From Thermospira aquatica (lineage in GTDB: Bacteria > Spirochaetota > Brevinematia > Brevinematales > Thermospiraceae): a DNA stretch of 64,000 bases. Below, piece after piece: positions 32,886-54,813 of the stretch (the stretch's first letter is position 1; the number at the start of each line of letters is the position of its first letter). The stretch covers positions 1,364,001 to 1,428,000 of the forward strand of contig NZ_CP073355.1 of the NCBI RefSeq assembly GCF_023525255.1. The letters run 5' to 3'. The translations under genes were made by a program, and so were the position numbers. The notes below the pieces were generated by a model. The model saw only the letters and a program-made list of their open reading frames with translations, was not told the origin of the DNA and did not search any database.

Positions 32886-33276
32886 GGGGAATGATCTGAA
32901 CCCATACCTCGCGTTTTCTTGGACCGTCAAACTCACAGAAAAAAATGCTTTGCCATGTTCCAAGCTGGATTTTACTCTCTGAGATGGGTACTATCACAGA
33001 GGAACCTGTGAGAACGCTCTTGATGTGGGCGTCTGAGTTTCCTTCTCGGTGATGAAAATCATCTCGCGGGGAGATGGTATGAGACAACCAGAGAAGAATA
33101 TCATGCTGTACGTCTGGGTCGGCATTTTCGTTTATGGTTACTGCAGCTGTGGTATGAGGAATGAATACCATCGCTATCCCTTCTTTTACGCCAGAGGTTC
33201 TTACAGCTTCTTCAACAAGAGTATCAATGGGAAGCATGCATTGTCGCTTGGGTGTCGAAAGGTGAAAACGGTACAT
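32854..33276 (-). CDS. YjbQ family protein (UPF0047)
   Basis: A 140-residue member of the YjbQ/UPF0047 family, sometimes called a secondary thiamine-phosphate synthase but without a firm cellular role. Key residues: GIAMVFIPHTTAAVTINENADPDVQHDI (about 35-60), HREGNSDAHIKSVLTGSSVIVPI (metal-binding His), and the closing LGTWQSIFFCEFDGPRKREVWVQI. It overlaps the stop codon of the upstream phosphoesterase gene (TGATG) and its end overlaps lptG on the other strand. Confidence 0.93.
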   Translation of the reverse strand: MYRFHLSTPKRQCMLPIDTLVEEAVRTSGVKEGIAMVFIPHTTAAVTINENADPDVQHDILLWLSHTISPRDDFHHREGNSDAHIKSVLTGSSVIVPISESKIQLGTWQSIFFCEFDGPRKREVWVQIIPPTWGVDDTTR

Positions 33277-34553
33277 CAGAGGTTACTCCAAGCTCCTGTG
33301 GGAAGATGGATACGGAGGTTTTTATCGGGAGGAAGGAGATCAGTTTGCAGTCCCCGGATTACATACCCTTGATACCAGAGAATGAAGCGTGCTCGTGCTC
33401 CCATTTCTTTCCCTGTTGGGGAAAAGGTTACTCCGGGCTCATCTCCCGCGTAATGAACGGCAAAACCTTTGGCTACATCTTCTGCTATTTTGACTCCTTC
33501 AGCGTCAGGTACTCCGTACTTTCGAATGGTGTTGAGAGCCTGTCCGGTAAGTCCTTTGATCAAGTATTGCCGGCTGTATTCCTCAAAACCTGGATAGATG
33601 GAGACTGTGCTTGTTTGAATGGTGAGGAAAGCGTCTTCGAGAGAACAGATACGATAAGGGGAGGGATAGGAAACGAGGGAGCCTGTCTCAATATCGTAGA
33701 GGGTTTCTTTGTCTACCACAGAGGCGGTGATGTCCTGAGAATGGTAATGTCCTGTGAAAACGAGACGGATACGGTATTTTGCCATGAGTTTTGCCAGGTC
33801 TTTGCGGTTATTGAGGAGGTACTCGGGATGGAGTTTTCTCTGACCGGGCCAGTGTTCAAAAAGCCCGTGGTGCATCATTAAGATGAGCGTGGCGTTGCTT
33901 TTTTTTGCCTCCTGGGCAATGCCTTCAAGCCATTTGAGGGTTTGGGGTTTGAGTCTTCCTTCAGTTACGGGGTGTTTGAGCATGCGGTTGGATTCGTTGA
34001 TGGTGGAATCCAGCGCTGCAAGCCAGAAGTCAGGGGTAATACGAACAGCATACGAGAGAGAAAAGGTATCCCGACTAAAAGCGTCTCTGTAACCAAAATC
34101 CGCATAGAATTCTGCAAAATCTTTATCAGAAAGATAGGCAACAGGTAAGGTCTTGTCTTCTTCGTAACGAAAAGCCTCAGGGTTGTTGAGATCATGGTTT
34201 CCGGGAATGACAAATATTTTGGGTTGACGGGGATGATTTTTCTTGATTTTTTGAAGGGCGGAACGTACCGCCTCATGGTTGACGAGTTCTCCATCTTTGG
34301 TCAGGTCGCCCGGGATAAGGATAAAATCAACGTTAAGTTGCATCACTTCTTGTATCCATGCTTCGAGGAGTTGAGGTGCTTCTCGAAGAAGTTTTCTATC
34401 ATCGGCGAGATAGCTTTCAAAAGCTTTACCGTTGGTTCCCAGTTCACTACTGTAATAGTGAAGATCGGACACGACAACCCACGAGAGGGATGTCTGACCA
34501 TACAATGTTTGCATGAGGAAAATGGAAAGAAAAATTCGCATAAACGATTTCAT
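33276..34553 (-). CDS. Secreted calcineurin-like metallophosphoesterase
   Basis: A 425-residue exported hydrolase. A signal peptide (MKSFMRIFLSIFLMQTLYGQ) is followed by the metallophosphoesterase motifs VVVSDLHYY (D-x-H), FILIPGDLTKDGE (GD), FVIPGNHDLNN (GNHD), MMHHGLFEHW and FTGHYHSQD (GHxH). Its substrate is unknown. From ATG 34553 there is an AAAGGAGG ribosome binding site; longer in-frame starts are rejected because they lie in the promoter. It is transcribed with the YjbQ-like gene. Confidence 0.92.
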   Translation of the reverse strand: MKSFMRIFLSIFLMQTLYGQTSLSWVVVSDLHYYSSELGTNGKAFESYLADDRKLLREAPQLLEAWIQEVMQLNVDFILIPGDLTKDGELVNHEAVRSALQKIKKNHPRQPKIFVIPGNHDLNNPEAFRYEEDKTLPVAYLSDKDFAEFYADFGYRDAFSRDTFSLSYAVRITPDFWLAALDSTINESNRMLKHPVTEGRLKPQTLKWLEGIAQEAKKSNATLILMMHHGLFEHWPGQRKLHPEYLLNNRKDLAKLMAKYRIRLVFTGHYHSQDITASVVDKETLYDIETGSLVSYPSPYRICSLEDAFLTIQTSTVSIYPGFEEYSRQYLIKGLTGQALNTIRKYGVPDAEGVKIAEDVAKGFAVHYAGDEPGVTFSPTGKEMGARARFILWYQGYVIRGLQTDLLPPDKNLRIHLPTGAWSNL

Positions 34554-34575
34554 AAAAACCTCCTTTGTGGTTTTT

Positions 34576-34604
34576 ATTGTAATGAACAAGAAGGAAAAAG
34601 ACAA
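34576..34604 (-). promoter_or_regulatory. Promoter of the metallophosphoesterase gene
   Basis: Minus strand TTGTCT (34599-34604), 17-bp spacer, TACAAT (34576-34581). Confidence 0.72.
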
Positions 34605-34694: not shown

Positions 34695-35302
34695 GCTATG
34701 ACTTTGTCGCAGTGAGAAAACTGCTGTTTTTTTGTTGCAGTACGAGAGGGAAAACAAGCTCTTCCCGTGTTGCAGTGAGCTCGAAAAATTCCCCTGCTCT
34801 TCCTTTCTTGCAGGAGAACAAGTTCCCTCTTGTCGAGTAAAGAAATGTCTCGAGATGAGCGGGGGTCACCTCGATACGCTTCGCTACTCGGTCACCTCGA
34901 TACGCTCCGTTGGAGCTACTCGGTGACCGTTCTCGATACGCTCCGTTGGAGCTACTCGGTGACCGTTCTCGATACGCCCCCTTAGGGCTACTCGGTGACC
35001 GAGTGGGTACGCTTCGCTACTTGGCGACCAAAAAACCTTCGGCTCTTACCCTATCGCAGTGAGAAGACTTGCTATTACCATGTTGCAGTCAATTTTTGGG
35101 GTGAGAGGTTTTTGGGGCGTGCTCTTTCCTTCTTACAGTCAAAAAACCCTCAGAGAAAATCACAAAAACTGAAACAGGGTAAGATCACTTTCTTCTCTTG
35201 CTGAAAAATTTGTTTTTACCCTCTTTTCGTGAAGGCAAAAATCACGTGCTCTTTCCCTGTCACAGGACGCCTCTTCTCTCTTTCCTGCAATAAGGGAATA
35301 GC
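34695..35302. repeat. Cluster 2 of the 19-nt dispersed repeat
   Basis: No gene is visible between the phosphoesterase promoter and the first propeller lipoprotein. Copies of the 19-nt unit lie at 34695-34713, 34723-34741, 34758-34776, 34796-34814, 35042-35060, 35071-35089, 35121-35139 and 35248-35266 (all forward), with an inverted copy at 35284-35302. Forward copies generally start GCT and end CAGT or CAGG. Two pairs are spaced 28-29 nt start to start. Confidence 0.8.
34863..35035. repeat. REP-like hairpin repeats (array 1)
   Basis: About five head-to-tail units of the form CTCGATAC-[variable hairpin]-TACTCGGTGACC. The centre differs between units yet stays self-complementary: GCTTCGC, GCTCC-GTT-GGAGC (present twice here) and GCCC-CCTTA-GGGC. 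This resembles bacterial REP/BIME sequences. The equivalent array near 36.8 kb has one GGAGC unit fewer. Confidence 0.75.
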
Positions 35303-35366
35303 ATACCGCCTGTTTTTAAGAGAAAAACCCGCCCACTATGAAAAGAAAAAGAAGAGACACTTCTTC

Positions 35367-36503
35367 TTATTTGTAGACCATCACGGTGGCTTTGTTGCCA
35401 TTTGCCACATCTTGATAAGCCACGTAGGGAGTACCGTTGTCGACGTAGAGAGAAATAAAGTTGGCCGCTCCAGCTGAAAATCCGGGATTTCCCACGTTAG
35501 TCCACTCTGTTCCAGTAAACCTCATCACGGTGGCTTTGTTGCCATTTGCCACATCTTGATAAGCCACGTAGGGGGTACCGTTGTCGACGTAGAGAGAAAT
35601 ATAGGCGGCCTCTCCAGCTGAAAATCCCGGGCTTCCGACGACTTGCCAACTTGATCCATTCCATTTCATGACGGTGGCTTTGTAGCCATTTGCCACATCT
35701 TGATAAGCCACGTAGGGAGTACCGTTGTCGACGTAGAGAGAAATATAGTAGGCCTCTCCAGCTGAAAATCCCGGGCTTCCGACGGGTTGCCAACTTGATC
35801 CATTCCATTTCATGACGGTGGCTTTGTAGCCATTTGCCCAATCTTGATAAGCCACGTAGGGAGTACCGTTGTCGACGTAGAGAGAAATATAGTAGGCCTC
35901 TCCAGCTGAAAATCCCGGGCTTCCGACGGGTTGCCAACTTGATCCATTCCATTTCATGACGGTGGCTTTGGTGCCATTTACCCAATCTTGATAAGCCACG
36001 TAGGGGGTACCGTTGTCGACGTAGAGAGAAATATAGGCGGCCTCTCCAGCTGAAAATCCCGGGCTTCCGACGGGTTGCCAACTTGATCCATTCCATTTCA
36101 TGACGGTGGCTTTGTAGCCATTTGCCACATCTTGATAAGCCACGTAGGGGGTACCGTTGTCGACGTAGAGAGAAATATAGGCGGCCTCTCCAGCTGAAAA
36201 TCCCGGGCTTCCGACGGGTTGCCAACTTGATCCATTCCATTTCATGACGGTGGCTTTGGTGCCATTTACCCAATCTTGATAAGCCACGTAGGGGGTACCG
36301 TTGTCGACGTAGAGAGAAGTATAGGCGGTCCCTCCCGCTGAAAATCCCGGGCTTCCGAGGACCTGCCAGCTTTTTCCTCCATATCCAGGGAAATAGAGGT
36401 CGATGAATTCATCAAGTGTCATGGTGGGAAAAGTGAGAGAGCATCCATAAAAACCAACCACTACCACGATGATACTCTCAAGGAAGATGCTTTTTTTCTT
36501 CAT
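35367..36503 (-). CDS. Lipoprotein built of seven 48-residue propeller-like blades (copy 1)
   Basis: A 378-residue predicted lipoprotein. The signal peptide MKKKSIFLESIIVVVVGFYGC ends in a lipobox-like FYGC, then a short linker (SLTFPTMTLDEFIDLYFPGY) leads into seven near-identical 48-residue repeats: SWQPVGSPGFSAG - AYISLYVDNGTPYVAYQD - NGYKATVMKWNGS. Seven beta-rich repeats with this pattern suggest a seven-bladed beta-propeller on the cell surface or in the periplasm. The DNA of the 144-bp units is almost identical, so recombination can change it. It stops cleanly at MVYK. Ligand unknown. Ribosome binding site GGGGG. Confidence 0.87.
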   Translation of the reverse strand: MKKKSIFLESIIVVVVGFYGCSLTFPTMTLDEFIDLYFPGYGGKSWQVLGSPGFSAGGTAYTSLYVDNGTPYVAYQDWVNGTKATVMKWNGSSWQPVGSPGFSAGEAAYISLYVDNGTPYVAYQDVANGYKATVMKWNGSSWQPVGSPGFSAGEAAYISLYVDNGTPYVAYQDWVNGTKATVMKWNGSSWQPVGSPGFSAGEAYYISLYVDNGTPYVAYQDWANGYKATVMKWNGSSWQPVGSPGFSAGEAYYISLYVDNGTPYVAYQDVANGYKATVMKWNGSSWQVVGSPGFSAGEAAYISLYVDNGTPYVAYQDVANGNKATVMRFTGTEWTNVGNPGFSAGAANFISLYVDNGTPYVAYQDVANGNKATVMVYK

Positions 36504-36533
36504 ATTGTCCCCCTTCGAGAACTTTTCATCTGA

Positions 36534-36562
36534 ATTATAAAGGGTGTGGGTATCTTTGTCAA
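36534..36562 (-). promoter_or_regulatory. Promoter of propeller lipoprotein copy 1
   Basis: Minus strand TTGACA (36557-36562), 17-bp spacer, TATAAT (36534-36539): a consensus promoter, suggesting strong expression. Confidence 0.9.
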
Positions 36563-37160
36563 GCTAAAGACATTCCTCAAAAATAATCTCCGTGAAAGGA
36601 TGTTGTTTCCTCATAATTGCCAAAAAAAAGGTGGGGGAGGGGATTTGGTGCTCTTCCCTTGTTGCAGTGAGCTCGAAAAATTCCCCTGCTCTTCCTTTCT
36701 TGCAGGAGAACAAGTTCCCTCTTGTCGAGTAAAGAAATGTCTCGAGATGAGCGGGGGTCACCTCGATACGCTTCGCTACTCGGTCACCTCGATACGCTCC
36801 GTTGGAGCTACTCGGTGACCGTTCTCGATACGCCCCCTTAGGGCTACTCGGTGACCGAGTGGGTACGCTTCGCTACTTGGCGACCAAAAAACCTTCGGCT
36901 CTTACCCTATCGCAGTGAGAAGACTTGCTATTACCATGTTGCAGTCAATTTTTGGGGTGAGAGGTTTTTGGGGGCGTGCTCTTTCCTTCTTACAGTCAAA
37001 AAACCCTCAGAGAAAATCACAAAAACTGAAACAGGGTAAGATCACTTTCTTCTCTTGCTGAAAAAATTTGTTTTTACCATATTCTCGTGAAGGCAAAAAT
37101 CACGTGCTCTTTTCCTGTCACAGGACGCCTCTTCTCTCTTTCCTGCAATAAGGGAATAGC
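36563..37160. repeat. Cluster 3 of the 19-nt repeat with REP-like array 2
   Basis: This spacer is a near copy of the one at 34.74-35.30 kb. 19-nt units: 36650-36668, 36688-36706, 36898-36916, 36927-36945, 36978-36996, 37106-37124 (forward) and 37142-37160 (inverted). REP-like hairpin units occupy about 36759-36885. The block starting CTAAAGACATTCC at 36563 reappears at 39836. Confidence 0.8.
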
Positions 37161-38338
37161 ATACCGCCTGTTTTTAAGAGAAAAACCAGCCCACCATGAA
37201 CAGGAAAAGAAGGGAAAAGAAGAGTGTAGACCATCACGGTGGCGTGGGAGCCATCCCAATATCGATAAGCCACGTAGGGAGTACCGTTGTCGACGTAGAG
37301 AGAAATATACTCGGCCCCTCTCGCTGAAAATCCCGGGCTTCCGACGGGTTGCCAACTTGATCCATTCCATTTCATGACGGTGGCTTTGTTGCCATTTGCC
37401 CAATCTTCATAAGCCACGTAGGGGGTGCCGTTGTCGATGTAGAGAGAAGTCCAGTTGGCCTGTCCAGCTGAAAATCCCGGGCTTCCGACGGGTTGCCAAC
37501 TTGATCCATTCCATTTCATGACGGTGGCTTTGTTGCCATTTGCCCCATCGCTATAAGCCACGTATGGGGTGCCGTTGTCGATGTAGAGAGAAGTCCAGCT
37601 GACCCCTCCCGCTGAAAATCCCGGGCTTCCGACGGGTTGCCAACTTGATCCATTCCATTTCATGACGGTGGCTTTGTTGCCATTTGCCCAATCTTCATAA
37701 GCCACGTAGGGGGTGCCGTTGTCGATGTAGAGAGAAGTCCAGTTGGCCTGTCCAGCTGAAAATCCCGGGCTTCCGACGGGTTGCCAACTTGATCCATTCC
37801 ATTTCATGACGGTGGCTTTGAAGCCATTTGCCCCATCTTGATAAGCCACGTATGGGGTGCCGTTGTCGACGTAGAGAGAAGTATACTCGGCCATTCCAGC
37901 TGAAAATCCCGGGCTTCCGACGACTTGCCAACTTGATCCATTCCATTTCATGACGGTGGCTTTGTTGCCATTTGCCCAATCTTGATAAGCCACGTAGGGA
38001 GTACCGTTGTCGATGTAGAGAGAAGTCCAGCTGGCCCCTCCCGCTGAAAATCCCTGGCTTCCGACAACCTGCCAAATTAATCCATCCCATTTCCTCACAG
38101 TGGCTTTGTAGTCATCCCCATCGCTATAAGCCACGTAGGGCGTACCGTTGTCGACGTAGAGAGAAGTATACCCGGCTGAATATGCCGAGGTTCCGACGGG
38201 TTGCCAGCCTTTTGACCATTTTGGGAAAAAAAGATCGATGAATTCATCAAGGGTCATGGTGGGAAAAGTGAGAGAGCACCCATAAAAACCAACCACTACC
38301 ACGATGATACTCTCAAGGAAGATGCTTTTTTTCTTCAT
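37118..38338 (-). CDS. Lipoprotein built of seven 48-residue propeller-like blades (copy 2)
   Basis: A 406-residue paralogue of the gene at 35.4-36.5 kb with the same signal peptide and linker, and again seven blades. Blade 1 is shorter and more diverged (GWQPVGTSAYSAGYTSLYVDNGTPYVAYSDGDDYKATVRKWDGL); the others contain SLYIDNGTPYVAYEDWANGNKATVMKWNGS. The last blade lacks the stop codon of copy 1, so the frame runs about 35 residues further into the repeat spacer (LLFPSFPVHGG...), ending inside the 19-nt repeat zone. The added tail is therefore probably not a selected domain. Its promoter touches the IS-A1 insertion. Confidence 0.85.
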   Translation of the reverse strand: MKKKSIFLESIIVVVVGFYGCSLTFPTMTLDEFIDLFFPKWSKGWQPVGTSAYSAGYTSLYVDNGTPYVAYSDGDDYKATVRKWDGLIWQVVGSQGFSAGGASWTSLYIDNGTPYVAYQDWANGNKATVMKWNGSSWQVVGSPGFSAGMAEYTSLYVDNGTPYVAYQDGANGFKATVMKWNGSSWQPVGSPGFSAGQANWTSLYIDNGTPYVAYEDWANGNKATVMKWNGSSWQPVGSPGFSAGGVSWTSLYIDNGTPYVAYSDGANGNKATVMKWNGSSWQPVGSPGFSAGQANWTSLYIDNGTPYVAYEDWANGNKATVMKWNGSSWQPVGSPGFSARGAEYISLYVDNGTPYVAYRYWDGSHATVMVYTLLFPSFPVHGGLVFLLKTGGMLFPYCRKERRGVL

Positions 38339-38368
38339 ATTGTCCCCCCTCGAGAACTTTTCATCTGA

Positions 38369-38397
38369 ATTATAAAGGGTGTGGGTATTTTTGTCAA
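38369..38397 (-). promoter_or_regulatory. Promoter of propeller lipoprotein copy 2
   Basis: Minus strand TTGACA (38392-38397), 17-bp spacer, TATAAT (38369-38374). IS-A1 begins 5 bp beyond the -35 box, leaving the promoter intact. Confidence 0.88.
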
Positions 38398-38402
38398 TTT
38401 TT

Positions 38403-39834
38403 CGAATTGCTTCATAATAAAAGTACTCGAAAAGGGAACGCTATTGCAAAATAAAAAAGTACTTTAAATTTGTGTAAAATAATCCAGTTCATGGCTCGAC
38501 AAGCTCGCCAACCGTGGCTCGACAAGCTCGCCAACCGGAATTGGGGTGGCGATGTTTGAAAAAAGACCTATTGACAGGGAAACGGCAAAACAATATCAAA
38601 AAGCCAGCAAAAAGGAGAAAAAGGAGATACTGGATTATTTTGTGAGGATAACAGGCCTAAAAAATCGAAACTATGCCGCCAGGCTCTTGAGGCAGCACGG
38701 AAAAACCATCTATGTAGGCAAGAAAAATTACCTTAAAGCCGACATAGCCAAGAAGGGCAAAAGACCTGGCAGAAAGAAAAAATTCGGCGAAGAGGAACTA
38801 AAAATGCTAAAACAGGTCTGGGAAATTGAAAACTACATGTGTGGCAAACGTTTAAAGCCAATTTTAAATGAAGTTTTAGATAATCTCTTAGCAAACGGAC
38901 ATCTCCACGGTTCTCCACAGGCTATAGAAAACTTGCGCCATATAAGTGCCTCAAGTATTGACCGACTTTTGAAACATGAGCGTAAAAAGCTTGAGATAAA
39001 AGGACGAAAAGGCACAAAACCTGGAACCTTATTAAAGCAACAAATAGCTATACGCACTTGGGCAGAGTGGGATGAAAATTGCCCTGGTTTTATGGAGATT
39101 GATCTGGTTGCCCATGAGGGAGGAAATAGCCGGGGAGATTTTGCTCAAACATTAAATATGGTGGATGTTTGGAGCGGTTGGACAGAACTTGTGGCAATCA
39201 AAACAAAGCTTCAAAATGGGTAAGAGAAGCCATAGAAAAGTCCAAAGAAGACTTCCTTTTGATTTACGGGGAATTGATTCTGATACCGGTGCTGAATTTA
39301 TTAATCATCCTCTACGCGAGTGTGAGAAGCACCAGATAAAATTTACAAGGGGGAGAAGCTCCCGTTCCAATGATAACTGCTACGTTGAGCAGAAAAACTA
39401 TTCCATAGTCCGCCAGAATGTTGGATACTTCCGCTACGATACCGAGGAAGAAGTCTACTACTTGAACCGACTCTATGCGTATCTCAGGCTTTATGCCAAC
39501 TTTTTTCAACCGGTTATGAAAATGACAGAGAAAAAGAGAATCGGAAGCAAGGTGCAAAAGAAGCATGATGATATTAAAACTCCCTACCAACGGCTTTTAG
39601 AAAGCTCTTATGTAAGTGAGGCACAAAAGGAACGCCTAACAAGGCTTTATAAGGCTCTCGATTTGTTTCACCTAAGACAAAAAATTACGGCTTGCCAGAG
39701 AAAACTTTTCAGCCTTCAAAAGAAAAAGAATGTAAAAAACAAAAATTTGGAGGAAACTGTATGGAATTTTTGAGTACTTTTTTTTATGAGGCAATGATTC
39801 GAATTTCGAGTACTTTTTTATTTGACGCAACGGG
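38403..39834 (+). mobile_element. IS-A copy 1 (integrase-core insertion sequence, defective)
   Basis: About 1.43 kb, ending in imperfect inverted repeats that share TTGCNTCA...AAAAGTACTCGAAA. Two tandem repeats of GGCTCGACAAGCTCGCC precede the transposase. The gene is frameshifted, and no clean target duplication is seen. It sits between the promoter of propeller lipoprotein 2 and the third copy of the repeat spacer; the sister unit has TTGTCAA directly joined to GCTAAAGAC at this place, marking the empty site. Confidence 0.88.
38552..39773 (+). pseudogene. IS-A transposase, frameshifted (copy 1)
   Basis: Transposase with a helix-turn-helix N-terminus (EILDYFVRITGLKNRNYAARLL) and an integrase-like DDE core (MEIDLVAHEGG; GIDSDTGAEF; a later Glu in CYVEQKNYSIVRQ). 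The frame breaks near 39200 where the other copies have AAAAA and this one AAAA (VAIKTKLQNG-stop); it also lacks 3 bases in HPLREC. Its start (MFEKRPIDRETAKQYQKAS) is the best preserved of the four copies. Confidence 0.88.
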
Positions 39835-39835
39835 G

Positions 39836-40293
39836 CTAAAGACATTCCTCAAAAATAATCTCCGTGAAAGGATGTTGTTTCCTCATAATTGCCAAAAAAA
39901 AGGTGGGGGAGGGGACTTGGTGCTCTTCCCTTGTTGCAGTATAGGAGGAAGAAAAGTTTTTTTGCTCTTACCATATCACAGTGAGGGGGAAACCCCCTAA
40001 GCTATTCCCTTATCACAGTAAAAACCCTTGCTCTTACCTTGTCACAGTGGGAAAAATTCCAGCTATTACTTTTTTACAGTGTTAAACCTCCCGATAACAC
40101 TGTAAAAAGGGAATAGCTTATGTCAAGAACTCCAGGTTAAACGTTTAACCGACTTTCTCCTATCCTACCGCAGCTATTTTGAACCTTACTCTTTCCTGAT
40201 CACAGTCTAAGGTTAGGAACCTATCAATTGCAACAAGGGAAGAGCATTCCCCTCCGGGAAAGCACTCCGCTCAGGTGAGAGTGCGAAAGGTTT
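39836..40293. repeat. Third repeat spacer: cluster 4 of the 19-nt repeat
   Basis: A gene-free stretch with the densest set of 19-nt units: 39922-39940, 39964-39982, 40001-40019, 40030-40048, 40062-40080 and 40188-40206 forward; 40099-40117 and 40227-40245 inverted. The facing pair 40062-40080 / 40099-40117 can form a long hairpin. The 16-bp perfect palindrome GGTTAAACGTTTAACC is at 40135-40150. The first 100 bases repeat those at 36563. Confidence 0.82.
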
Positions 40294-42627
40294 TTACCTT
40301 TCCAGGACAAGGATTCGAACTCGTTTTCTCTCGTCATTCCAAACGGCTTCTATAACATGTTCTCCCGGGCGCAATGTCCAGAATATTTTTGTTCCTTTTC
40401 CTATTTTTTCTCCATCACAGAACCATGTAATTTCGCCGTTTCCCATAGCTTCAAGGGGGATAGACTGGTATTGCTCTGGAATCTGAGTATCAACTCCAAA
40501 TACTGCTCCATCCTTGGGAAAGAGAATTTCCAACCTTTCTGGCTTTTGAATCCCAAACTGCTTTTTTTCTGCCCACGATTGATATTCAGGTGGGACTACG
40601 GTTTCCCCTTGAGGTGTATGCCACGTGCAAGATTCCTGGGGAAGATTGGAGGGAACAAATATCTCCTCTGTGGTTTCCTTACACCCCTGGTGTGCAATCA
40701 TCCCTGAGAGAACACATATGCGCTGGGTAATGAGTGTCATATTGCTTGCCCTGAAAGGAGGAAAAGGAAATCCCTGGTTCCACAAAAGAAGCATCACATT
40801 GCGAAGCACTTTTCCCGCTCCAGCGACGGCCGCCAGGTCTTGCATGGGCTCCTCGTAGAGATTTCCCACCCACACAGCTGTGGTTATCAAGGGGGTATAT
40901 CCCACCACACAGTTATCCCTGAAATCCTTCGTCGTCCCTGTCTTAACCGCTACAGGGAAGGGGAAATAGATAGGCGAATTTATCCCAAAAGCGGGAAACT
41001 TGTATTGATGTTCTGAGAGGATCCTGGAGATAAGAAAACACGTTTCTCGTGAGAGCACGTGTTCTGATTTTGGGGTGGGAAGAGAGACCCGACGGCCATT
41101 TTTAAGCATGATGAAGCGAAGCGAACGAACATGCTGGAAGATTCCCTCTTTGGGGAAAATGGTGTACCCCTGGGCCAGTTCGAGAAGGGTAAGGTTGGCA
41201 TTTCCCAGCACAAGTCCAAGCCCATAGAAAGCCGGATTTCTTACAAGAGAATCAAACCCAATTCTTTTAAGAAAGAAATAGAATGGTTCTATGCCTATGG
41301 TTGCGGCGACATGGACAGCTGAAACATTATACGAGGATGCCAGCGCTACTGCCAGCCGTACAGGCCCGTGATAGGTACGGGTAAAATTTTTGGGAATATA
41401 ACGCCCAATCGCGGCAGGGTATTCCTGGTAAATATCCGGCAGAATACTCGAAGGATGGTAGAGACTGTTTTCCATTGCCAGAGCATAGGCAAAGGGTTTC
41501 ATCACAGAACCAACCTGTTTTCGGATAAGGGTGGCATTGATCATACCCTTTTCCTCGTCAAAAAAATCAAGAGAACCTACCATTACCCGCAGTTCTGAGG
41601 TGGGATTATCTATCATGACAAGGCTGGCATGTTTCGCATTGTAGGTCTCAAGACTTTTGAGAACATCGAAGATTACCGGTCGAATGTTGGTGTACATCTC
41701 AAGGTCGAAGGTGGTATAAATCTCAGCAATCTGAGAGGCAGGAACATACTTTTTTGCCTCCTGCAGGGCATACAAACAGAAAAGAGGAGCATAAACACGC
41801 TGCTCCATCGGGTATACGTGAAGCCACATTTCCTCGTAGGTTTTCATCATTTCTTGTGGAAAAGAGAGAATGTGAGCCTCCCAGGCTCGTCGTAAAAGTT
41901 TTCGAGCTCGAATCGTAAACTCCATCCCCGAACGATAGGGTTGATGTTTCGATGGGGCGGGTATCATCGCTATTAACGCACTCATCTCAAGTAAGTTTAG
42001 GGATTGCAGGGATTTTCTGAAGTAAATCTCAGCAGCCTTTTCAAATCCGTAGATATGGTTTCCCAGGAAGACAGTATTGATATACGCCTCAAGAATCTCC
42101 TCCTTAGAAAAATGTTGCTCGAGGCGATATGCCTCAAGAATCTCGGTAAATTTGGACCAGAGAGTGTTTCGCATTTTTCCCCGTCGCATACGGACAAGCT
42201 GCTGGGTAAGCGTTGAACCTCCGGAAACGATTCTCCCTTTTTTTACGTTCTGAAACGTGGCACGTAGCAGAGAAGAAGGTCTCCATCCCTTATGAGAGAA
42301 AAATGTTCTATCTTCTGAAAAGAGAAGAAGCTCGATAAAATCCTGTGGCACCTCGCAGAGAGAGATTTTCTTACACAATCCCCCTTTTTCGGGTGTCATT
42401 TCCATGAGAAGGTGACCATGCCTATCATATACCTTGATGCTTCGCTCGGAGAAGCGGGAAAGTTCATCCGGTGGGTAAGGCCACAAAGAAAACACCGTAA
42501 ATATTCCCCCCAGGACAAGCACCATATATACCCAGAGATGGTTTTTGTTTTCTTTTAAAAAATTTTTCAAAAAGATGAAAAACTTCACCACACGAACCAT
42601 TGTGTCAAGAAAATTGTGTCTAGTCAT
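40294..42627 (-). CDS. pbpC: Penicillin-binding protein 1C-like peptidoglycan synthase
   Basis: A bifunctional transglycosylase/transpeptidase of 777 residues. One span (about 31-50) precedes the glycosyltransferase domain with SEDRTFFSHKG (catalytic Glu105) and SGGSTLTQQLVRM; the transpeptidase has SVMK (Ser374/Lys377), SYN (432-434) and KTG (562-564); a C-terminal BiPBP_C-like domain (about 690-775) marks PBP1C. An IS256-type element sits exactly at the 5' end. The present start (ATG 42627, GAGG 7 nt upstream) lies inside the IS and overlaps the transposase stop as ATGA; the first ten residues are IS-encoded. The original start was probably a GTG beside residues VRVVKFF. Confidence 0.9.
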   Translation of the reverse strand: MTRHNFLDTMVRVVKFFIFLKNFLKENKNHLWVYMVLVLGGIFTVFSLWPYPPDELSRFSERSIKVYDRHGHLLMEMTPEKGGLCKKISLCEVPQDFIELLLFSEDRTFFSHKGWRPSSLLRATFQNVKKGRIVSGGSTLTQQLVRMRRGKMRNTLWSKFTEILEAYRLEQHFSKEEILEAYINTVFLGNHIYGFEKAAEIYFRKSLQSLNLLEMSALIAMIPAPSKHQPYRSGMEFTIRARKLLRRAWEAHILSFPQEMMKTYEEMWLHVYPMEQRVYAPLFCLYALQEAKKYVPASQIAEIYTTFDLEMYTNIRPVIFDVLKSLETYNAKHASLVMIDNPTSELRVMVGSLDFFDEEKGMINATLIRKQVGSVMKPFAYALAMENSLYHPSSILPDIYQEYPAAIGRYIPKNFTRTYHGPVRLAVALASSYNVSAVHVAATIGIEPFYFFLKRIGFDSLVRNPAFYGLGLVLGNANLTLLELAQGYTIFPKEGIFQHVRSLRFIMLKNGRRVSLPTPKSEHVLSRETCFLISRILSEHQYKFPAFGINSPIYFPFPVAVKTGTTKDFRDNCVVGYTPLITTAVWVGNLYEEPMQDLAAVAGAGKVLRNVMLLLWNQGFPFPPFRASNMTLITQRICVLSGMIAHQGCKETTEEIFVPSNLPQESCTWHTPQGETVVPPEYQSWAEKKQFGIQKPERLEILFPKDGAVFGVDTQIPEQYQSIPLEAMGNGEITWFCDGEKIGKGTKIFWTLRPGEHVIEAVWNDERKRVRILVLER

Positions 42628-43869
42628 AGGATAACCTCGCTGTGAATATTTTCTTTGGTGTATGAGTGTTGCTCACGATAGAGTTGAAAGTAATACTCCC
42701 AATTTTTTAACTTTCTTTTTAAGAACTTCTCATTTTGGTATCTTAATAACAGGTAAAGATATTTCTCAGCTGAAGCCTCGCTTTGACACATTTCCATTGT
42801 TTTTAATCTCCTTTTAAGTTCTTTAAAGAGTCTTTCCAGGGCATTGTTTGTATACACCATGCTTCGTATTCCTTCAGGTAATTCCATGTAAGTGAATATA
42901 TTCTCTCTTATTGTCAAGAGGTTATTCATTAAGTTGGGATAGATATTTTTCCATTTTTGTGTAAATTTCATAAACAATTGTTCTGCCTCCTGTTTGTCTT
43001 TGGCATGAAATACCTCTTTTATTTCAGTGGCAATGATATTTCTGTGTTGAACTCTCACTTTAGCCAGTATGTTTCTCATGACATGGACTACACAGGGCTG
43101 ATACTTTGCGTGGATATATCTCTGTTATGACGTTTTTCATACCACTTAAGCCATCAGAGACAATAAAATGAATCTGTTTGACACCTCTTTCTCTTATATC
43201 TAGCAAAATTTCCCGCCAGTTATAAGCACTTTCCATGCCTCCTGGCAGGTAGTATCCTAAAATCTCCCGTCTTCCCTCAGGTGTAATGCCTATAGCTACA
43301 TATATTGATTCATTTTCTACCCTATCTCTCTTGATAGGAAACACCATAGCATCCAGAAATACCACGGCATATTCTTCCTTGATGAGGGCGACTACGCCAC
43401 TTCTGAATCTCTTCTATGCCTACCTGGCTTATCCTTGAGATGTTAGCATAAGAAATCTTTATTTCATAAAGCTCTTTTAAAACTTCTGCTATCTTCCTTG
43501 TTGACATTCCTGATATCAACATAGCCCTGATTAATGCATCTAAGTCTTCTGTGATGCGTTTGCGATAGGGAAGAAGGGCACTTTTAAATCCATTATCCCT
43601 TGTTCTTGGAACACGTATGGCTGTAAGCTCGCCAAAAGCTGTCTTTAAATCCCTTTCGTAAAAGCCATTGCCTTTTGTGGGAGGATTGTTTTCCAGGTAA
43701 ATCTCTCTTTCCTCTTTTAACATACTCTCTAATACTTCCTTGACAATTGGTTTGAATAGCTCTAAAATATTCTTCGTCTCAATCATATCTGGCCTCCTGT
43801 GATAGTTTTATTTATATTATCACAGGAGGTTATCTTTTTCCTACCAGACACAATTAAGTATACACTGCC
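42598..43869 (-). mobile_element. IS256-family element, copy 1
   Basis: A 1272-bp element with terminal inverted repeats that share AATTGTGTCT, flanked by the 8-bp direct repeat ACACGAAC (42590-42597 and 43870-43877). It has inserted into the 5' end of pbpC, between that gene and the divergent alpha-2-macroglobulin gene. Confidence 0.93.
42624..43786 (-). pseudogene. IS256-family (Mutator-type) transposase, two frameshifts
   Basis: A Mutator-type DDE transposase. The start MIETKNILELFKPIVKEVLESML is intact; conserved parts include VVFLDAMVFPIKRD (first Asp), FIVSDGLSGMKNVI (second Asp) and YTNNALERLFKELKRR (Glu). Compared with copy 2 it has one extra base near 43385 and two missing bases near 43110, breaking the frame twice. 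Confidence 0.9.
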
Positions 43870-43880
43870 ACACGAACCTC

Positions 43881-43909
43881 TTGAAATTTTTTTTTGTTTT
43901 TCTTATCAT
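43881..43909 (+). promoter_or_regulatory. Possible promoter of the alpha-2-macroglobulin gene
   Basis: TTGAAA (43881-43886), 17-bp spacer, TATCAT (43904-43909). It begins only 3 bp beyond the IS256 target duplication, so the insertion just missed it. The -10 box is weak, so this is tentative. Confidence 0.45.
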
Positions 43910-43947
43910 TTATTATAAGGAAAACATTCAAAAAAAGGAGAAAGCAT

Positions 43948-46900
43948 ATGTGGAAATGGATGGGAGGGGTACTGTTGTGTTGGGGGATGCTGTTTTCTCA
44001 AAGTAGGCTACCAGTAACGATATATCCGTGGGATCTTGAGTCAGCTTCGCCAGTGAGGTTGGTGTTTCGCTTTGATACTCCTGTGGTTAAGATGAGTGAT
44101 ATTGCTTCCATGACAGAGGAAGTTACGAAGAACATCTTTTTTGACTTTAGTCCTCGTCTTAAATACAGGATTGAGGTTATTGATGAACAGAGTTTTGCCC
44201 TGACCATAGAGGAAAAACTTCTTCCTGCCAGAAGGTACTACCTCACCGTTAGGATCTCAACAAACTTTCCACAGGTTTTTAAGATAGGAGGGAAAAAGTA
44301 TTCTACCAATGAGCTTCTTTTCTTTGATACTCCCTCTCAGGAGATTGTAAGAGCAGAGAAAGCCTCAGAGCTTCCCGATGCTCCTATTACCATTTCTTTT
44401 CGCTTTCCGGTAGAGATCGAAAAGCTTCGTTCTCTTCTCAAGATTTCAATGGTGCCAAAAGTGGATGATTTAAAGAACTCGCTCAATGTTGAAATCTCTT
44501 TTTCTCTTCGGTATAGCACGAATGGTTCCAAGGAAAACAAATCGAGGGTCCTCGTGATCCCGAAGGGTGAGAAAGAGCATAGTGACTACATTCTCACCAT
44601 TGACAAAGCCCTCACTCCTATAGGGGGAGAGCTTCCTATGAAGGCAAACTACCAGTTTAAGTATGCTACCTATAAACCCCTGAGGGTAGTCAGGATTGGT
44701 TCATCGGACGAAAAAAAGTTTTACCGTGATTCGACGATTGTTATATTTTTTAATAATCCTCTCCCCCCTCGAACAGAAAAAGCAGGCTGGGTTAAGATAA
44801 CGCCTGCAGTCCAGAATCTTTCTGTCAGTTCTGAGGGAAAGATGCTCTACGTTTCTGGTGTTTTTGTTCCTGGTACCAGGTATAAACTTGTGGTTCAACC
44901 GCTGGTAACCGATATCTACCGGCAAACTCTTGATAAAGAAAGTGAATATACCTTTGAGGTTGAGGATTCTCCTTCGTTTTATTCTGCCCCTGCTGGGTAT
45001 CTTCTGATGGAGAACTATCTTGCCAATCTTTTCCCTATTAAAACGAGAAACATTGAAAAAATCTTTTTCTCTTATAGGTCTCTTACCAATGAGAGAGAAA
45101 TATTTTCATTTCTTGAGGCGCTCTCAAAGTCTGAAAAAGAGGCTTTGAAGAGCAGGATAAAAGACACCCATGAGTACACGCTTCCGCCACGGTGGAATAG
45201 TGTTGAAATCTATAAAATTCCTCTTAAAAGGTTTCACCCATCGAAAAGTGGTTTTCTTCTTTATGAGATTACGGTGAAAAGACGTACTCCTGCCTATAGT
45301 TCATGGGAGGATGAATATCCCTCTCGAGGTTATGTGCAATTTTCGGATATGGCAGCCACGCTCAAACGTGGTCCCTGGGCAGATCTTCTTATAGCCCGCT
45401 ATCTCAAAAACAACGCACCTGTGACCAACGCAGAGGTGTATAGTTATCGAAAAGGTCAACTTGTGTTAGTGGGGAAAACAGGGAGCCTTGGTACCCTCCT
45501 TATAACCAATAATAGGGGAAATGTTTATATGCTCAAAACTGATAAGAGCCGCTTTTTCCTTTCTCATGTTTCAGGAAAGGTAAGTGAGAGGGTAAACTGG
45601 GGATCATGGTATGCTGCCGATAGACCTGGGTGTGTTATCTTTACGGAACGGTATCTCTATCAACCAGGAGAGAGGGTTTTTATTAAAGGGATTTACCGGT
45701 ATCGAACGAACGATACCTGGACAGTTGTACCTTTTTCACTTGCACCTTTCTCAAAGGATTCTATCGAGATTCTCATTGAGGACTCCCGCGGCGAAACTCT
45801 TTTATCAACTAATATAAGTCCGACTTCAAAAGGAAGCTTCGATTTGAGTGTGGTTGTTCCAAAGGATGCCCCTACAGGGACCTATTCGATAACTGCTTCA
45901 GTTCGAGGAAAGTTTTGGAGTTTGAGTGGCTACAATCCTGAGTTTTATAGTTCTTTCCAGGTGGAAGAATTTCGTCCCGCGAGGGCGGAGATGAAGATCC
46001 AGCCCAATAAACCATTGTACCTCGTTGGAGAGAGTATGCGGGTAGATCTGATCGGCTGGTATCTTTTTGGTGCGCCTATAGGAAGGGATGTCGAGTATAG
46101 TGTAGGTTTTCGTCCAACAGGATATTCGAGCAAACGGTTCCCATCATATTCGTTTAGCTTTTCTGGGTGGTATGATGAGGAGTATGATGAATACGGAAGT
46201 TATTCGTCTTCTTCGGAAATTAGCAGCGGCACCCTTTCTCCCGATAAGAATGGTGTTGCCTCTCTCAAGGTTGATCTTACCAAGATTGAGGAAGATGGTT
46301 TTCTCTCGGTATGGGCTAAAACTACCTTGCCTGACAATACCCCTGTAAGTGGGTACAAGGGGGATATCGAGGTGAGGAAAAAGCTTCATCTGGGTCTTCG
46401 TGTTCCCTCGTATTTTCATTTTCTTGATAAGCCTCTGTCTATTGATTTGGTTGCTGTCGACGGAGAGGACAAAATAACAACCAACGAGGGACTTCTCGTG
46501 GTCACCCATCATGAGTGGAATTCTTTTCTTGTGGCTGGACATGGAGGTCGTTATCAGTGGGAGTGGAGGGAGGTGGTTACCCCTGTCTATTCCAATACCG
46601 TAAAAATTTCCCAAACCACTATTCCCATAAAACTCTCGAAAGGCGGTTCCTACGTGGCTACCGTCTATGAAAGACGAGGGAAAAAGCTTATTCCCCATGG
46701 GAAAGAGTGGTTTTATGTGATTGGTGGGGGTTTTTATGGATGGCGTATCTCTGAGGATGATAGAACAGAGGTGATTTCCGACAAATCCTCGTATGATGTT
46801 GGGGAGACAGCGACTCTTCTTATCAAAAACCCTTACAAATCAGCCCGAGCCCTTATCACCATAGAGAGGGAAAAGTTTTACAAGACCTTTGATATTCCGG

Positions 46901-49406
46901 CAACGAATAGTATGGTCATTTTCAAACTTCCCATTGAAAAAGAGTATATCCCCAATGTGTATGTTTCGGTTATTCTCTATACAGGGAGGACAGGAATCAA
47001 CAGGGTTTCCAATGATGTGGATTTTGCCCGTCCCCAGTATCGCATAGGGTATGCCAATCTCTCGGTGATTCCAAAAGAAAAGTCTCTTCAGATTACGGTG
47101 AATACGGATAAAGCTACCTATACGCCCAGGGAAAAAGTCACTGCCAAAATCCAGATTCGTGATCATGCGGGCAAGCCTGTAAGTGGTGAAGTCACAATTT
47201 CTGTCGCGGACAGAGGGGTGTTGAATCTTGCGGGGTATAGCCTTCCTAATCCTCTTTCCTACTTTTATCAGTCAAGAAGTCTAGCTATCTCAACCTACGA
47301 AACACGAAACTTTATCTATGGGCAGCGGTATCTCACGGAAAAAGGAGAAATCCTTGGTGGTGATGGTGGTATTTCGCTGGGAATGATCGTCCCAAGGGCA
47401 ATTATCAAGTATACGGCTTTTTATGAGGCAAAGCTCGATGTCACCAATGGAGAGGCAACAGTTTCTTTTACCCTTCCTGACAATCTTTCCAGTTTCAAGG
47501 TGATGGCGGTGGCGCATACCCCTGATTCTATGTTTGGATACGGAGAAAACACTTTTACCGTCAAAAAACCTCTGATGGTACTGGAAAGTTTCCCCACCTT
47601 TGTAAGAATGCGGGATAGTTTCATGGCCGGCGGAATAATATTTAACTACACGGGGCAGAAACAAACCTTCACCGTTGAAATGAGCACAGGCGGTGGTCTC
47701 AGGGTAGGCGGGGACAAAAGCGTCATGACCAATATTACCCTCGAGAACAATACCTCTCAAGAAGTCCTTTTCCCGGTCAAGGTTACTGCCAAAGAAACTG
47801 GTGAAACCTCTCTTACTATGAAGGTAAAAGGAACAGCAGCAGAGGATGGTATTACCAAAACGATTCCTGTGACGATGATGCGCTATCCAGAAACTGTTGC
47901 CATCTATGGGATGCTCTCAAACGGTCAGAACCAGGCAGTAAACAATGTGACAGTCACCTCTCAGGTAATTCCTGAGCTCTCGAGTATAGAGACGACAGTG
48001 GCTCCTACCGCCTTTGTGGAGCTTAAAGGAAATCTGGACTACCTGGTTTCCTATCCCTATGGGTGTGCGGAACAAAAGACATCAAAGATTCTTCCGCTAA
48101 TTACAGGAGAAGAAGTGATTCTCAAGTATCGTCTGCTTGCTACCAAGACCAGAGAGGATCTGCGAGAGGTAGTCCAGAGTGTGCTAAAGGAACTCCCCGA
48201 GTATTTCAAGGGTAATGGTTTTTCCTACTGGAAGGATAGTACCTACGTTTCAAGCTACCTTACGGTGTACATCTTTTGGGTGATGACGCTTGCGAAAGAG
48301 AGAGGGTATAGGTTTGAGTCCTCTTTCTATGAAAAGGTGTTTCAGGTCGTAAAGGATTATATAAGCAAGGGAACAATTTCAGATGAATCTTTCCCCTCGT
48401 ATCGTTGGCTGGCGCTCTCGTATGCCCTTTATGTGGCTTCTCTTAATAACTATAACGATGTTTCCCGTCTTCGCTGGGGTTCGAAGCAAGGAAACAAATC
48501 TCCCCTGGACAGATATACTTTGAAACCGCGAGCTCGTGGGACTGGTTCTATTATACCAAAACGATCGAAAACGCCCTGGCCCTTCATGCGTATCTTGCAA
48601 GCGGAATCGATTTTCCTGATGCCTACAAGGTGATAAACTTCCTCATCAAAAGCCGGAATGGGTATGCCTGGCGCCATACCCATGAGAATGGTTGGGTCTT
48701 CTATGCGTTTTCTTCGTACCTCAACAAATACGAAAAAGACGAACCAATGACCTCTTGCCAGGTGCGAGTTGCAGCTCAGGAGATCCTTTCCGGCAGGTTT
48801 GAGAACAGACTCCAACCTGCTCAAACGGGAAGTATGTTTTTCAAAGCAGGCGATGAGGGAGAGTTTCCCATCACGCTTTCAAGAACAGGACAGGGAGCCC
48901 TGTATTACACTTACCGTTATCGTTATATTGCCAAAAAATTGCCAGCCTCCGTAAGTTATGGTTTTAGCCTTAAAAAAACCTACCTTGATCCTGATACGGG
49001 AGAACCTGTTTCTGTGTTTACTCGAGGCAAGGATTATCTGGTGAAAATTGAGGTGGCAGTTTCTCAACCTCGTTATATGGTGGTACTGGAGGATCATCTT
49101 CCTGCTGGTGCTGAGGCTGTCAACCTCTCTTTTGTTACGGAAGCAGGAAATCCAAACGCTGCACGGACGGGCACAAAAAGGGCAGGATACGATTTTTGGT
49201 GGAGTGGTTTTTCTCACAAAGAGATCTATAAAGACAGGGTCATCTATGCTGCGGATGTTCTTTATCCCGGTACCTACACTCTGACCTATCTCCTTCGTGC
49301 TAATTTGATGGGAACTTTTGCACTTCCTGGATGCCATATCGAGGAGATGTATGCCCCTGAGAATTTTGCTACCCTGTATACTCCGGAGAGTGTTGTGATT
49401 CAGTAA
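43948..49406 (+). pseudogene. Alpha-2-macroglobulin family protein, one frameshift near the 3' end
   Basis: A large periplasmic protease trap, about 1820 residues if the frame is restored. A signal peptide (MWKWMGGVLLCWGMLFSQS) follows a good ribosome binding site (AAAAGGAG). MG domains fill the N-terminal part; the thioester motif YGCAEQ is present (Cys near residue 1373), so it is the covalent-trapping type. The frame breaks in the GGGG run at 48476-48479: upstream the frame reads nonsense to a stop at 48633, while the other frame continues sensibly (ETASSWDWFYYTKTIENAL...) to 49406. It may be a real mutation or a sequencing slip. Divergent pairing with pbpC is the classic arrangement. Confidence 0.88.
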
Positions 49407-50842: not shown

Positions 50843-51071
50843 TTTTTCCTTTTTGCTGGCTTTTTGATACTCTGCTTCGACAAGCTCAGCATATCATTTC
50901 GCCGTTTCCCTGTAAATAGGTCTCCTTTCAAACATCGCCACCCCAATTCCGGTTGGCGAGCTTGTCGAGCCACGGTTGGCGAGCTTGTCGAGCCATGAAC
51001 TGGATTATTTTACACAAATTTAAAGTACTTTTTTATTTTGAAGCAACGTTCCCTTTTCGAGTACTTTTATT

Positions 51072-53352: not shown

Positions 53353-54813
53353 CCCGTTGCGTCAAATAAAAAAGTACTCGAAATTCGAATCATTGCCTCA
53401 TAAAAAAAAGTACTCAAAAATTCCATACAGTTTCCTCCAAATTTTTGTTTTTTACATTCTTTTTCTTTTGAAGGCTGAAAAGTTTTCTCTGGCAAGCCGT
53501 AATTTTTTGTCTTAGGTGAAACAAATCGAGAGCCTTATAAAGCCTTGTTAGGCGTTCCTTTTGTGCCTCACTTACATAAGAGCTTTCTAAAAGCCGCTGG
53601 TAGGGAGTTTTAATATCATCATGCTTCTTTTGCACCTTGCTTCCGATTCTCTTTTTCTCTGTCATTTTCATAACCGGTTGAAAAAAGTTGGCATAAAGCC
53701 TGAGATACGCATAGAGTCGGTTCAAGTAGTAGACTTCTTCCTCGGTATCGTAGCGGAAGTATCCAACATTCTGGCGGACTATGGAATAGTTTTTCTGCTC
53801 GACGTAGCAGTTATCATTGGAACGGGAGCTTCTTCCCCTTGTAAATTTTATCTGGTTCTTCTCACACCAATCACGCAGAGGATGATTAATAAATTCAGCA
53901 CCGGTATCAGAATCAATTCCCCGTAAAACAAAAGGAAGTCTTCCTTTGACTTTTTCTATGGCTTCTCTTACCCATTTTGAAGCCTTGTTTTTGATTGCCA
54001 CAAGCTCTGTCCAACCGCTCCAAACATCCACCATATTTAATGTTTGAGCAAAATCTCCCCGGCTATTTCCTCCCTCATGGGCTACCAGATCAATCTCCAT
54101 GAACCCAGGGCAATTTTCATCCCACTCTGCCCACGTGCGTATAGCTATTTGTTGCTTTAATAGCGTTCCAGGCTTTGTACCTTTTCGTCCTTTTATCTCA
54201 AGCTTTTTACGCTCATGTTTCAAAAGTCGGTCAATACTTGAAGCACTTATATGGCGCAAGTTTTCTATAGCCTGTGGAGAACCGTGGAGATGTCCGTTTG
54301 CTAAGAGATTATCTAAAACTTCATTTAAAATTGGCTTTAAACGTTTGCCACACATGTAGTTTTCAATTTCCCAGACCTTTTTTAGAAGTTTTAGTTCCTC
54401 TTCGCCGAATTTTTTCTTTCTGCCAGGTCTTTTGCCCTTTTTGGCTATATCGGCTTTAAGGTAATTTTTTTTGCCTACATATATGGTTTTTCCGTGCTGC
54501 CTCAAGAGCCTGGCGGCATAGTTTCGGTTTTTTAAACCTGTTATCCTCACAAAGTAATCCAGTATCTCCTTTTTCTCCTTTTTGCTGGCTTTTTGATACT
54601 CTGCTTCGACAAGCTCAGCATATCATTTCGCCGTTTCCCTGTAAATAGGTCTTTTTTCAGACCTCGTTAACCCAATTCCTGTTGGCGAGCCTGTCGAGCC
54701 ACGGTTGGCGAGCTTGTCGAGCCATGAACTGGATTATTTTACACAAATTTAAAGTACTTTTTTATTTTGAAGCAACGTTCCCTTTTCGAGTACTTTTATT
54801 ATGAAGCAATTCG
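53353..54813 (-). mobile_element. IS-A copy 3 (left arm of the composite transposon)
   Basis: 1461 bp with both ends complete. Each end holds two tandem copies of the motif TTGCNTCA(N)AAAAGTACT. Its right end is duplicated by the ISNCY-type insertion next door. Confidence 0.9.
53414..54550 (-). CDS. IS-A transposase (copy 3, longest open frame)
   Basis: 378 residues open from a GTG at 54550: helix-turn-helix region (NRNYAARLLRQHGKTIYVG), then an integrase core with Asp in FMEIDLVAHEGG, Asp in GIDSDTGAEFINHPL and Glu in NDNCYVEQKNYSIVRQ, and a C-terminal basic region. The reading frame lacks its original N-terminal ATG: the stretch that is MFEKRPIDRE in copy 1 is altered, and an in-frame TGA follows. 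It may start within the gene or be inactive. Confidence 0.8.
   Translation of the reverse strand: MRITGLKNRNYAARLLRQHGKTIYVGKKNYLKADIAKKGKRPGRKKKFGEEELKLLKKVWEIENYMCGKRLKPILNEVLDNLLANGHLHGSPQAIENLRHISASSIDRLLKHERKKLEIKGRKGTKPGTLLKQQIAIRTWAEWDENCPGFMEIDLVAHEGGNSRGDFAQTLNMVDVWSGWTELVAIKNKASKWVREAIEKVKGRLPFVLRGIDSDTGAEFINHPLRDWCEKNQIKFTRGRSSRSNDNCYVEQKNYSIVRQNVGYFRYDTEEEVYYLNRLYAYLRLYANFFQPVMKMTEKKRIGSKVQKKHDDIKTPYQRLLESSYVSEAQKERLTRLYKALDLFHLRQKITACQRKLFSLQKKKNVKNKNLEETVWNF

Follow-up and report, generated by a model that had tools for sequence, protein, structure and literature searches.

A tandem pair of putative seven-bladed propeller lipoproteins in Thermospira aquatica, with half-blade mosaics and focused loop variation

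A 64,000-nucleotide stretch of the Thermospira aquatica genome (RefSeq assembly GCF_023525255.1, contig NZ_CP073355.1, positions 1,364,001 to 1,428,000; hereafter the window, whose coordinates are used unless stated otherwise) contains two tandem lipoprotein-like genes on the reverse strand. Their products, P0001 (378 aa, 35367..36503) and P0002 (406 aa including a C-terminal tail, 37118..38338), are each composed of seven similar blades. On balance we lean towards the interpretation that the two proteins are closed seven-bladed rings, reshuffled by the exchange of half-blades, whose loops have diversified on one face as a binding platform. Under this proposal each of the two tandem lipoproteins would form a closed beta-propeller held by an N-terminal lipid tether. 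Sequence and prediction show that half-blades have been exchanged within the gene, which keeps the framework uniform, and that two stretches on one face, namely the D-A loop with the first part of strand A and the last part of strand B with the B-C loop, hold a wide range of residues and evolve faster than synonymous sites of the framework. The variable face would then be a putative binding platform (for a glycan, a peptide, a phage or a neighbouring cell) under diversifying selection, with intragenic conversion supplying new loop combinations; products with another number of blades could not close the ring and would be lost. If so, one small bacterial locus would display the amplification and differentiation cycle of propellers, loop diversification and a constraint on blade number together.

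Blade arrays and predicted fold

Both open reading frames (ORFs) show exactly seven blades, as the original prediction, made from the DNA letters alone, had stated for this tandem pair. According to blade scans and structural models, the P0001 array covers residues 45-378 (35370..36371, reverse strand) and comprises seven blades, all of 48 aa except the last, which has 46, while that of P0002 covers residues 44-373 (37220..38209, reverse strand), where five 48-aa blades are preceded by one of 44 aa and followed by a terminal one that merges into the tail. The earlier description of near-identical 48-residue blades stands in part. The stated length is found in 11 of the 14 blades of both genes together, but with median pairwise protein identities of 85% in P0001 and 74% in P0002 (58% or less in the relatives counted below) the wording suits internal blades better than those at the ends of the arrays. 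In the DNA, Tandem Repeats Finder (TRF) recovers 144-bp arrays of 6.8 copies at 93% matches and 6.3 copies at 89%, and blades B4 and B6 of the second gene are identical throughout (144/144 nt).

The AlphaFold2 models, computed from two-sequence alignments, give both proteins seven four-stranded blades (28 strands = 7 x 4). The best model of P0001 reaches a predicted local distance difference test (pLDDT) score of 88.5 and a predicted template modelling (pTM) score of 0.84, and that of P0002 a pLDDT of 81.5 and a pTM of 0.79; the weakest of the five models have pLDDT values of 74.1 and 67.6, respectively. Structure prediction, which had been suggested as a check, thus returns a closed ring for each protein, and an open solenoid is ruled out by both models. 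The proposed closed propeller is further upheld by end-to-end alignment to solved propellers. The first strand of P0001 (residues 46-48) is of type D and its chain stops after strand C of the last blade; from this strand order, the N-terminal strand D should complete the last blade in a velcro closure.

The best whole-ring match of P0001 residues 45-378 by VIA-align is the C-terminal seven-bladed domain of CylK (Z 32.6, root-mean-square deviation 2.7, 319 aligned residues, 17% identity), to which P0002 aligns with Z 30.8 over 313 residues. G-protein beta subunits and lectins score Z ~25-28 against the two proteins. Foldseek's own ranking has LGI1 EPTP at the top and CylK outside its 50 best. 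The top face of the CylK propeller is formed by blade-connecting loops and inner loops, according to the available text of PMC8916777. Unlike P0001 and P0002 (17-18% identity), CylK is an enzyme fused to a calcium-binding domain, and the structural match points to a ring, not to a function. A viral fold library yielded numerous phage and large-virus propellers, among which an unnamed one scored highest (template modelling score 0.73 by query length), and its matches gave nothing telling on the function of P0001 or P0002.

Sequence searches delineate what appears to be a family without a clean curated model. P0001 as a whole protein scores above the Pfam cut-offs for Rax2 (PF12768; 33.8 vs 28.8) and DUF6087 (PF19565; 41.9 vs 27.1), and P0002 above that for DUF6087 (43.0) and below that for Rax2 (26.5); these scores are sums of short repeats, with no single stretch above cut-off. 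Five of nine family members match Rax2 and four match DUF6087 at E 0.01. A known curated family was rejected, Pfam, NCBIfam and PHROGs giving only sum-of-repeat or weak matches, among them one stretch of P0001 that matches a PHROG of unknown function (E 0.0005). No PDB sequence was matched by the family profile at E 0.01, and single-sequence PDB matches are weak (three up to E 1, the best being TolB at 0.012). Six short blade peptide strings had no occurrence in open-access papers.

The first 36 residues are common to both proteins and run from the signal peptide to GFYGC (Cys21) and a short helix, after which the blades begin; signal peptide and tether together occupy 36375..36503 in gene 1 and 38213..38338 in gene 2 (both reverse strand). 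Read by eye, GFYGC is a loose lipobox, and relatives have more canonical ones (e.g., LAASC, LVSSC). Both proteins are thus probably lipid-anchored at the N-terminus, and a location at the cell surface would follow from the lipobox-like cysteine taken together with what is generally known of spirochaete lipoproteins. Directly upstream of each gene a TTGACA-N17-TATAAT element can be read by eye; with the 5' leader it forms a putative promoter stretch (36504..36562 and 38339..38397, reverse strand), identical between the genes at 57 of 59 bases and differing at two.

Half-blade exchange and loop variation

Several blades of gene 1 are exact composites of others: A3 combines the front of A2 with the back of A1, A5 the front of A4 with the back of A2, and A2 the front of A3 with the back of A5. 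These mosaics are not independent of each other, A2 being also a parent. Their breakpoints fall between nucleotides 53/78 and 100, in the conserved A-B stretch that separates the two loops, and no such composite arose in 500 column shuffles. Incompatible site pairs amount to 6/22 among near sites (<=15 nt) and 55/83 among far ones (permutation p 0.003). Furthermore, blades differ by a mean of 11.1 nt within a gene vs 15.3 between genes (p 0.0046). Exact half-blade mosaics and concerted evolution, seen as greater likeness within than between genes, bear out the earlier suggestion that recombination has shaped the arrays. Across the two genes, complete blades differ by at least 10 of 144 nt, the leaders differ at 11/126 bases and the 3' flanks at 13/568 aligned bases (46 gap columns). 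Judged from these figures, either the arrays have changed faster than their flanks since the duplication, or a later homogenisation has made the flanks alike.

The statistics on variation use the 11 complete 48-codon blades of both genes, from one strain. The original prediction had located the differences after FSAG and around YQD, which corresponds to blade positions 14-18 and 31-38 (13 codons). These segments were picked after the variation had been seen, as was the half-blade partition from predicted strands used below. The focus is confirmed: 19 of the 28 extra amino-acid types occur in the 13 segment codons (free-shuffle p = 0.0002), and across 48 circular shifts of the segments only the true register attains this count. 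Non-synonymous (pN) and synonymous (pS) differences in the segments are 0.239 and 0.013, as against 0.037 and 0.112 in the other 35 codons (framework pN/pS 0.33). Since synonymous sites in the loops are few, loop pN over framework pS is the fairer measure; it equals 2.13 (1.65-3.11 by bootstrap over blades).

In the model, the strands of a blade lie at positions 2-4 (D), 15-23 (A), 26-33 (B) and 39-45 (C). Positions 14-18 thus cover the D-A loop end and the first part of A, and positions 32-38 the last part of B and the B-C loop. Both variable stretches therefore lie at the same strand ends and, by the predicted strand order, on one face of the ring, in agreement with the earlier proposal. The strand-based half-blade partition gives a pN/pS of 3.9 on the variable face vs 0.19 on the other, and pN minus pS of the variable-face half-blade is the highest among 48 rotations. 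The relative L013, the next most homogeneous array (58%), has a loop pN/pS of 1.74 vs 0.50 elsewhere (6/7 blades used), an independent hint of loop diversification.

Such a combination recalls the HET-D, HET-E and HNWD proteins of Podospora anserina, whose WD40 arrays of near-identical blades undergo concerted evolution, with diversifying selection on residue pairs of the d-a loop and b-c turn of the top face and a highly variable repeat number (2 to 15 in a table), as described in the available text of PMC1805685 and PMC2873952. Concerted evolution is shared with HET-D/E, and, as far as one genome shows, the non-synonymous excess that 11 of its blades display in the corresponding loops resembles the fungal pattern. 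In HET-D/E the WD40 repeats stand at the C-terminus of eukaryotic NACHT/STAND proteins, whereas P0001 and P0002 are bacterial, lipoprotein-like and non-WD40: none of their Pfam matches up to E = 1 is a WD40 model, and they are therefore not members of the HET-type arrays. Repeat number, variable in the fungi, is seven in both genes of this strain, and a contrast with the fungal arrays is to be expected on this point. We can only tentatively put forward that the pair is a bacterial counterpart of the fungal allorecognition propellers, in which surface lipoproteins would combine half-blade exchange and selection on two loops with a number locked at seven by ring closure. If that were true, the one-blade copy described below would be either a collapse product removed by selection or a fossil single-blade seed. 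What is new here is the bacterial lipoprotein setting, the lack of a clean curated family model and the retention of seven blades in both copies.

Blade number in relatives and competing explanations

Matches to P0001 at E 1e-10 were found in 31 of the 392 genomes of a phylum sample, its own genome included (the collections searched contain a single genome for each species). Part of these matches was fetched for a blade count, in which 34 distinct relatives' ORFs were scanned with an iterated blade hidden Markov model and classed by reading the rows; own-genome rows, L011 (same ORF as L079), L010 and the weak L018, L020 and L027 were omitted. L010, which has runs of X, gave seven blade matches outside the count. 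Exactly seven confident contiguous blades are present in 16 of the 34. Another 14 have three to six confident blades spanning about seven (5.9-7.6 blade lengths), from which span we infer seven, and L025 has seven blades scattered across 744 residues in a cut frame. The remaining three are short: L082 is cut by a contig end, L084 is a fragment of two blades and L083 has three. Free variation of repeat number is thus not observed among the 34, in line with the original prediction, but the three-blade L083 is complete; on these sequences, blade number does not vary freely, yet it is not absolute. Since seven is usual in the wider, diverged family, the number reflects in the first place a fold constraint that was inherited. 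The stronger claim of selection for blade number stays an inference, as two arrays from one strain cannot measure selection against other numbers.

The search for other members in the host genome, a single contig of 2.52 Mb, recovered one, a third copy at G000:C1:1202869-1203129 (L005 / L076) that shares the leader and 3' flank, holds one blade and has a stop codon in place of the expected lipobox Cys. It looks dead, having either lost its array or never had one, and as a one-blade copy with a stop it fits selection on blade number. Apart from it, no further place in the host genome matches P0001 or P0002 at E 0.001; the leader alone has two weak matches elsewhere (E 0.009 and 0.47). A family propeller also occurs in an 810-aa ORF of a Brevinematales metagenome-assembled genome (L028:3191-5623, also L086), next to tape-measure-like and endolysin-like genes in what is apparently phage tail DNA. 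Peptide-pattern searches of further genome and viral contigs gave one locus each, this same ORF.

Several observations weigh against the binding-platform interpretation. The evidence comes from only 11 complete blades of one strain, whose arrays may contain repeat assembly errors, and loop pS rests on ~7 synonymous sites per blade. In 158 relatives' blades, the five most variable columns include sites 14, 16, 32 and 34; the nine variable sites there average 3.29 bits, as against 2.11 for columns beyond the segments (sites 15 and 18 do not reach the top 18 columns). As the same sites vary in relatives, relaxed constraint or loop tolerance may account for part of the loop signal, although tolerance alone does not give pN > pS. 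In two other relatives the loop pN/pS does not exceed 1 (0.61 vs 0.63 elsewhere in L056, 0.68 vs 0.41 in L057); these are older, more diverged arrays whose synonymous sites are far along to saturation. L083:3879-4412 is a complete lipoprotein-like ORF of 178 aa with three blades. Ring closure by oligomerisation is conceivable for it; homo-oligomeric closure is described for engineered few-bladed WD40 fragments (available text of PMC6805158). The stop position of P0001 is missing from gene 2, the alignment having a gap at that point, and the tail of P0002 (residues 376-406) has a pLDDT <50, which could be early decay. Finally, the propeller genes have no match in the genomes of the two sister species of the genus, while the order of the neighbouring genes up to the metallophosphoesterase gene is conserved there; the pair is therefore dispensable in the genus.

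The alternative that survives best, although we regard it as rather unlikely, is an ordinary, recently amplified propeller, its arrays regrown from one blade and its loops simply least constrained, with neither a recognition role nor selection for diversity. The available text of PMC9218822 describes propellers as continuously amplified from single blades, mostly to the number usual in their lineage, with many larger or smaller and some disrupted, and reports WRAP homologues in which non-synonymous changes exceed synonymous ones. Both marks of recent amplification in that paper are found here, namely a median blade identity >60% (85% and 74%) and blades more alike within a protein than to those of its homologue (11.1 vs 15.3 nt differences). 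P0001 and P0002 also resemble WRAP-type propellers (available text of PMC9218822 and PMC6805158) in high internal identity, within-protein likeness and disrupted pieces nearby in some genomes. The variability of several of the same sites in relatives and the sister species devoid of the genes likewise speak for this alternative. Yet relaxed loops predict a pN near pS, whereas loop pN is about twofold above framework pS; the exact half-blade mosaics require exchange after amplification; and both arrays hold seven blades, the family's usual number. Moreover, the searches run place the pair in a blade family distinct from WRAP, and it comprises two tandem paralogues with equal blade number and half-blade mosaics. 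Gene conversion, concerted change, loops and positive selection find no mention in the available main text of PMC9218822.

An improbable alternative is a multivalent, lectin-like propeller that binds sugar at seven repeated sites, has its loop residues tuned to a glycan and is engaged in no arms race; it overlaps the binding-platform proposal, which leaves the ligand open. The PLL/PHL and BP39L lectins have seven blades with repeated sites. They share the seven-bladed ring fold and belong to the top fold matches (Z ~25.6-27.9), and the variable loop positions 16, 17, 34 and 38 include aromatic side chains (W/Y/F). Identity to these lectins is only 9-13%, however, many unrelated propellers score alike, and the blades differ exactly where uniform sites should agree.

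Less credible again is a failing young gene family, duplicated, shuffled and already decaying. The stop at the lipobox Cys position of the one-blade copy and the lost stop and added tail of gene 2 agree with such a history, and decay of young propellers has been described (available text of PMC9218822). Against it, both genes of the window retain an intact frame, seven blades, a leader and a promoter-like element, and the framework pN/pS is 0.33. Programmed antigenic variation, with silent cassettes or a diversity-generating retroelement rewriting the loops, is hardly plausible and was rejected: changes do concentrate on few codons, several of NNC form, but the host genome has no reverse transcriptase match (PF00078, E 0.001; control matches in 3/14 genomes) and, the single-blade copy aside, no further place matching the proteins at E 0.001.

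The duplicated locus and other features of the window

The gene pair is flanked on one side by a metallophosphoesterase gene at 33276-34604 (Pfam Metallophos) and on the other by a pbpC-like gene at 40294-42627. Sequence comparison resolves the intervening DNA into two copies of a unit of ~1.9 kb. The first (34758..36649) contains the 3' flank, gene 1, its promoter and an upstream stretch, and the second (36650..39921) is enlarged by an inserted segment resembling an insertion sequence (IS). A dispersed 19-mer, found by pattern search on the forward strand, marks the left border (34758..34776), the junction of the two copies (36650..36668) and the right border (39922..39940), in the order unique DNA, 19-mer and unit; unit end, 19-mer and unit start; unit end, 19-mer and unique DNA. 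Its presence at all three borders is as expected of unequal recombination between two 19-mer copies, by which the tandem pair would have arisen.

The degenerate 19-mer GCTMTTNCCNTNTYRCAGT has 374 exact matches in the host genome, as against 0 for a reversed-pattern control, and no match in two sister genomes. It clusters around the propeller genes, at 34695-35302, 36650-37160 and 39922-40245 of the window. In the stretches inspected the 19-mers are clustered, often at a spacing of 32-37 bases, and inverted pairs were noted by eye towards the ends of clusters. None of the three clusters has an Rfam match at gathering thresholds.

The inserted segment (38398..39834) lies upstream of the gene 2 promoter, holds two overlapping ORFs and contains 22-bp inverted repeats (38449-38470 / 39802-39823). 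Its second ORF has a weak match to an IS481 transposase (E 0.0017, 17.9 bits vs a cut-off of 224), and family searches gave no convincing match for the first.

Elsewhere in the window, a Mutator-type transposase (42624-43786) is in two pieces that jointly omit the middle of the profile. An alpha-2-macroglobulin-like gene near the pbpC-like gene (43894-49406) is split into overlapping ORFs of 1579 aa and then 258 aa, the latter with a bMG10 domain. Additionally, 23-bp tandem pairs of the TTGGCGAGCTTGTCGAGCCA type, which we take to be REP-like (repetitive extragenic palindromic), occur at 38492-38537, 50950-50995, 54681-54724 and 59642-59685.

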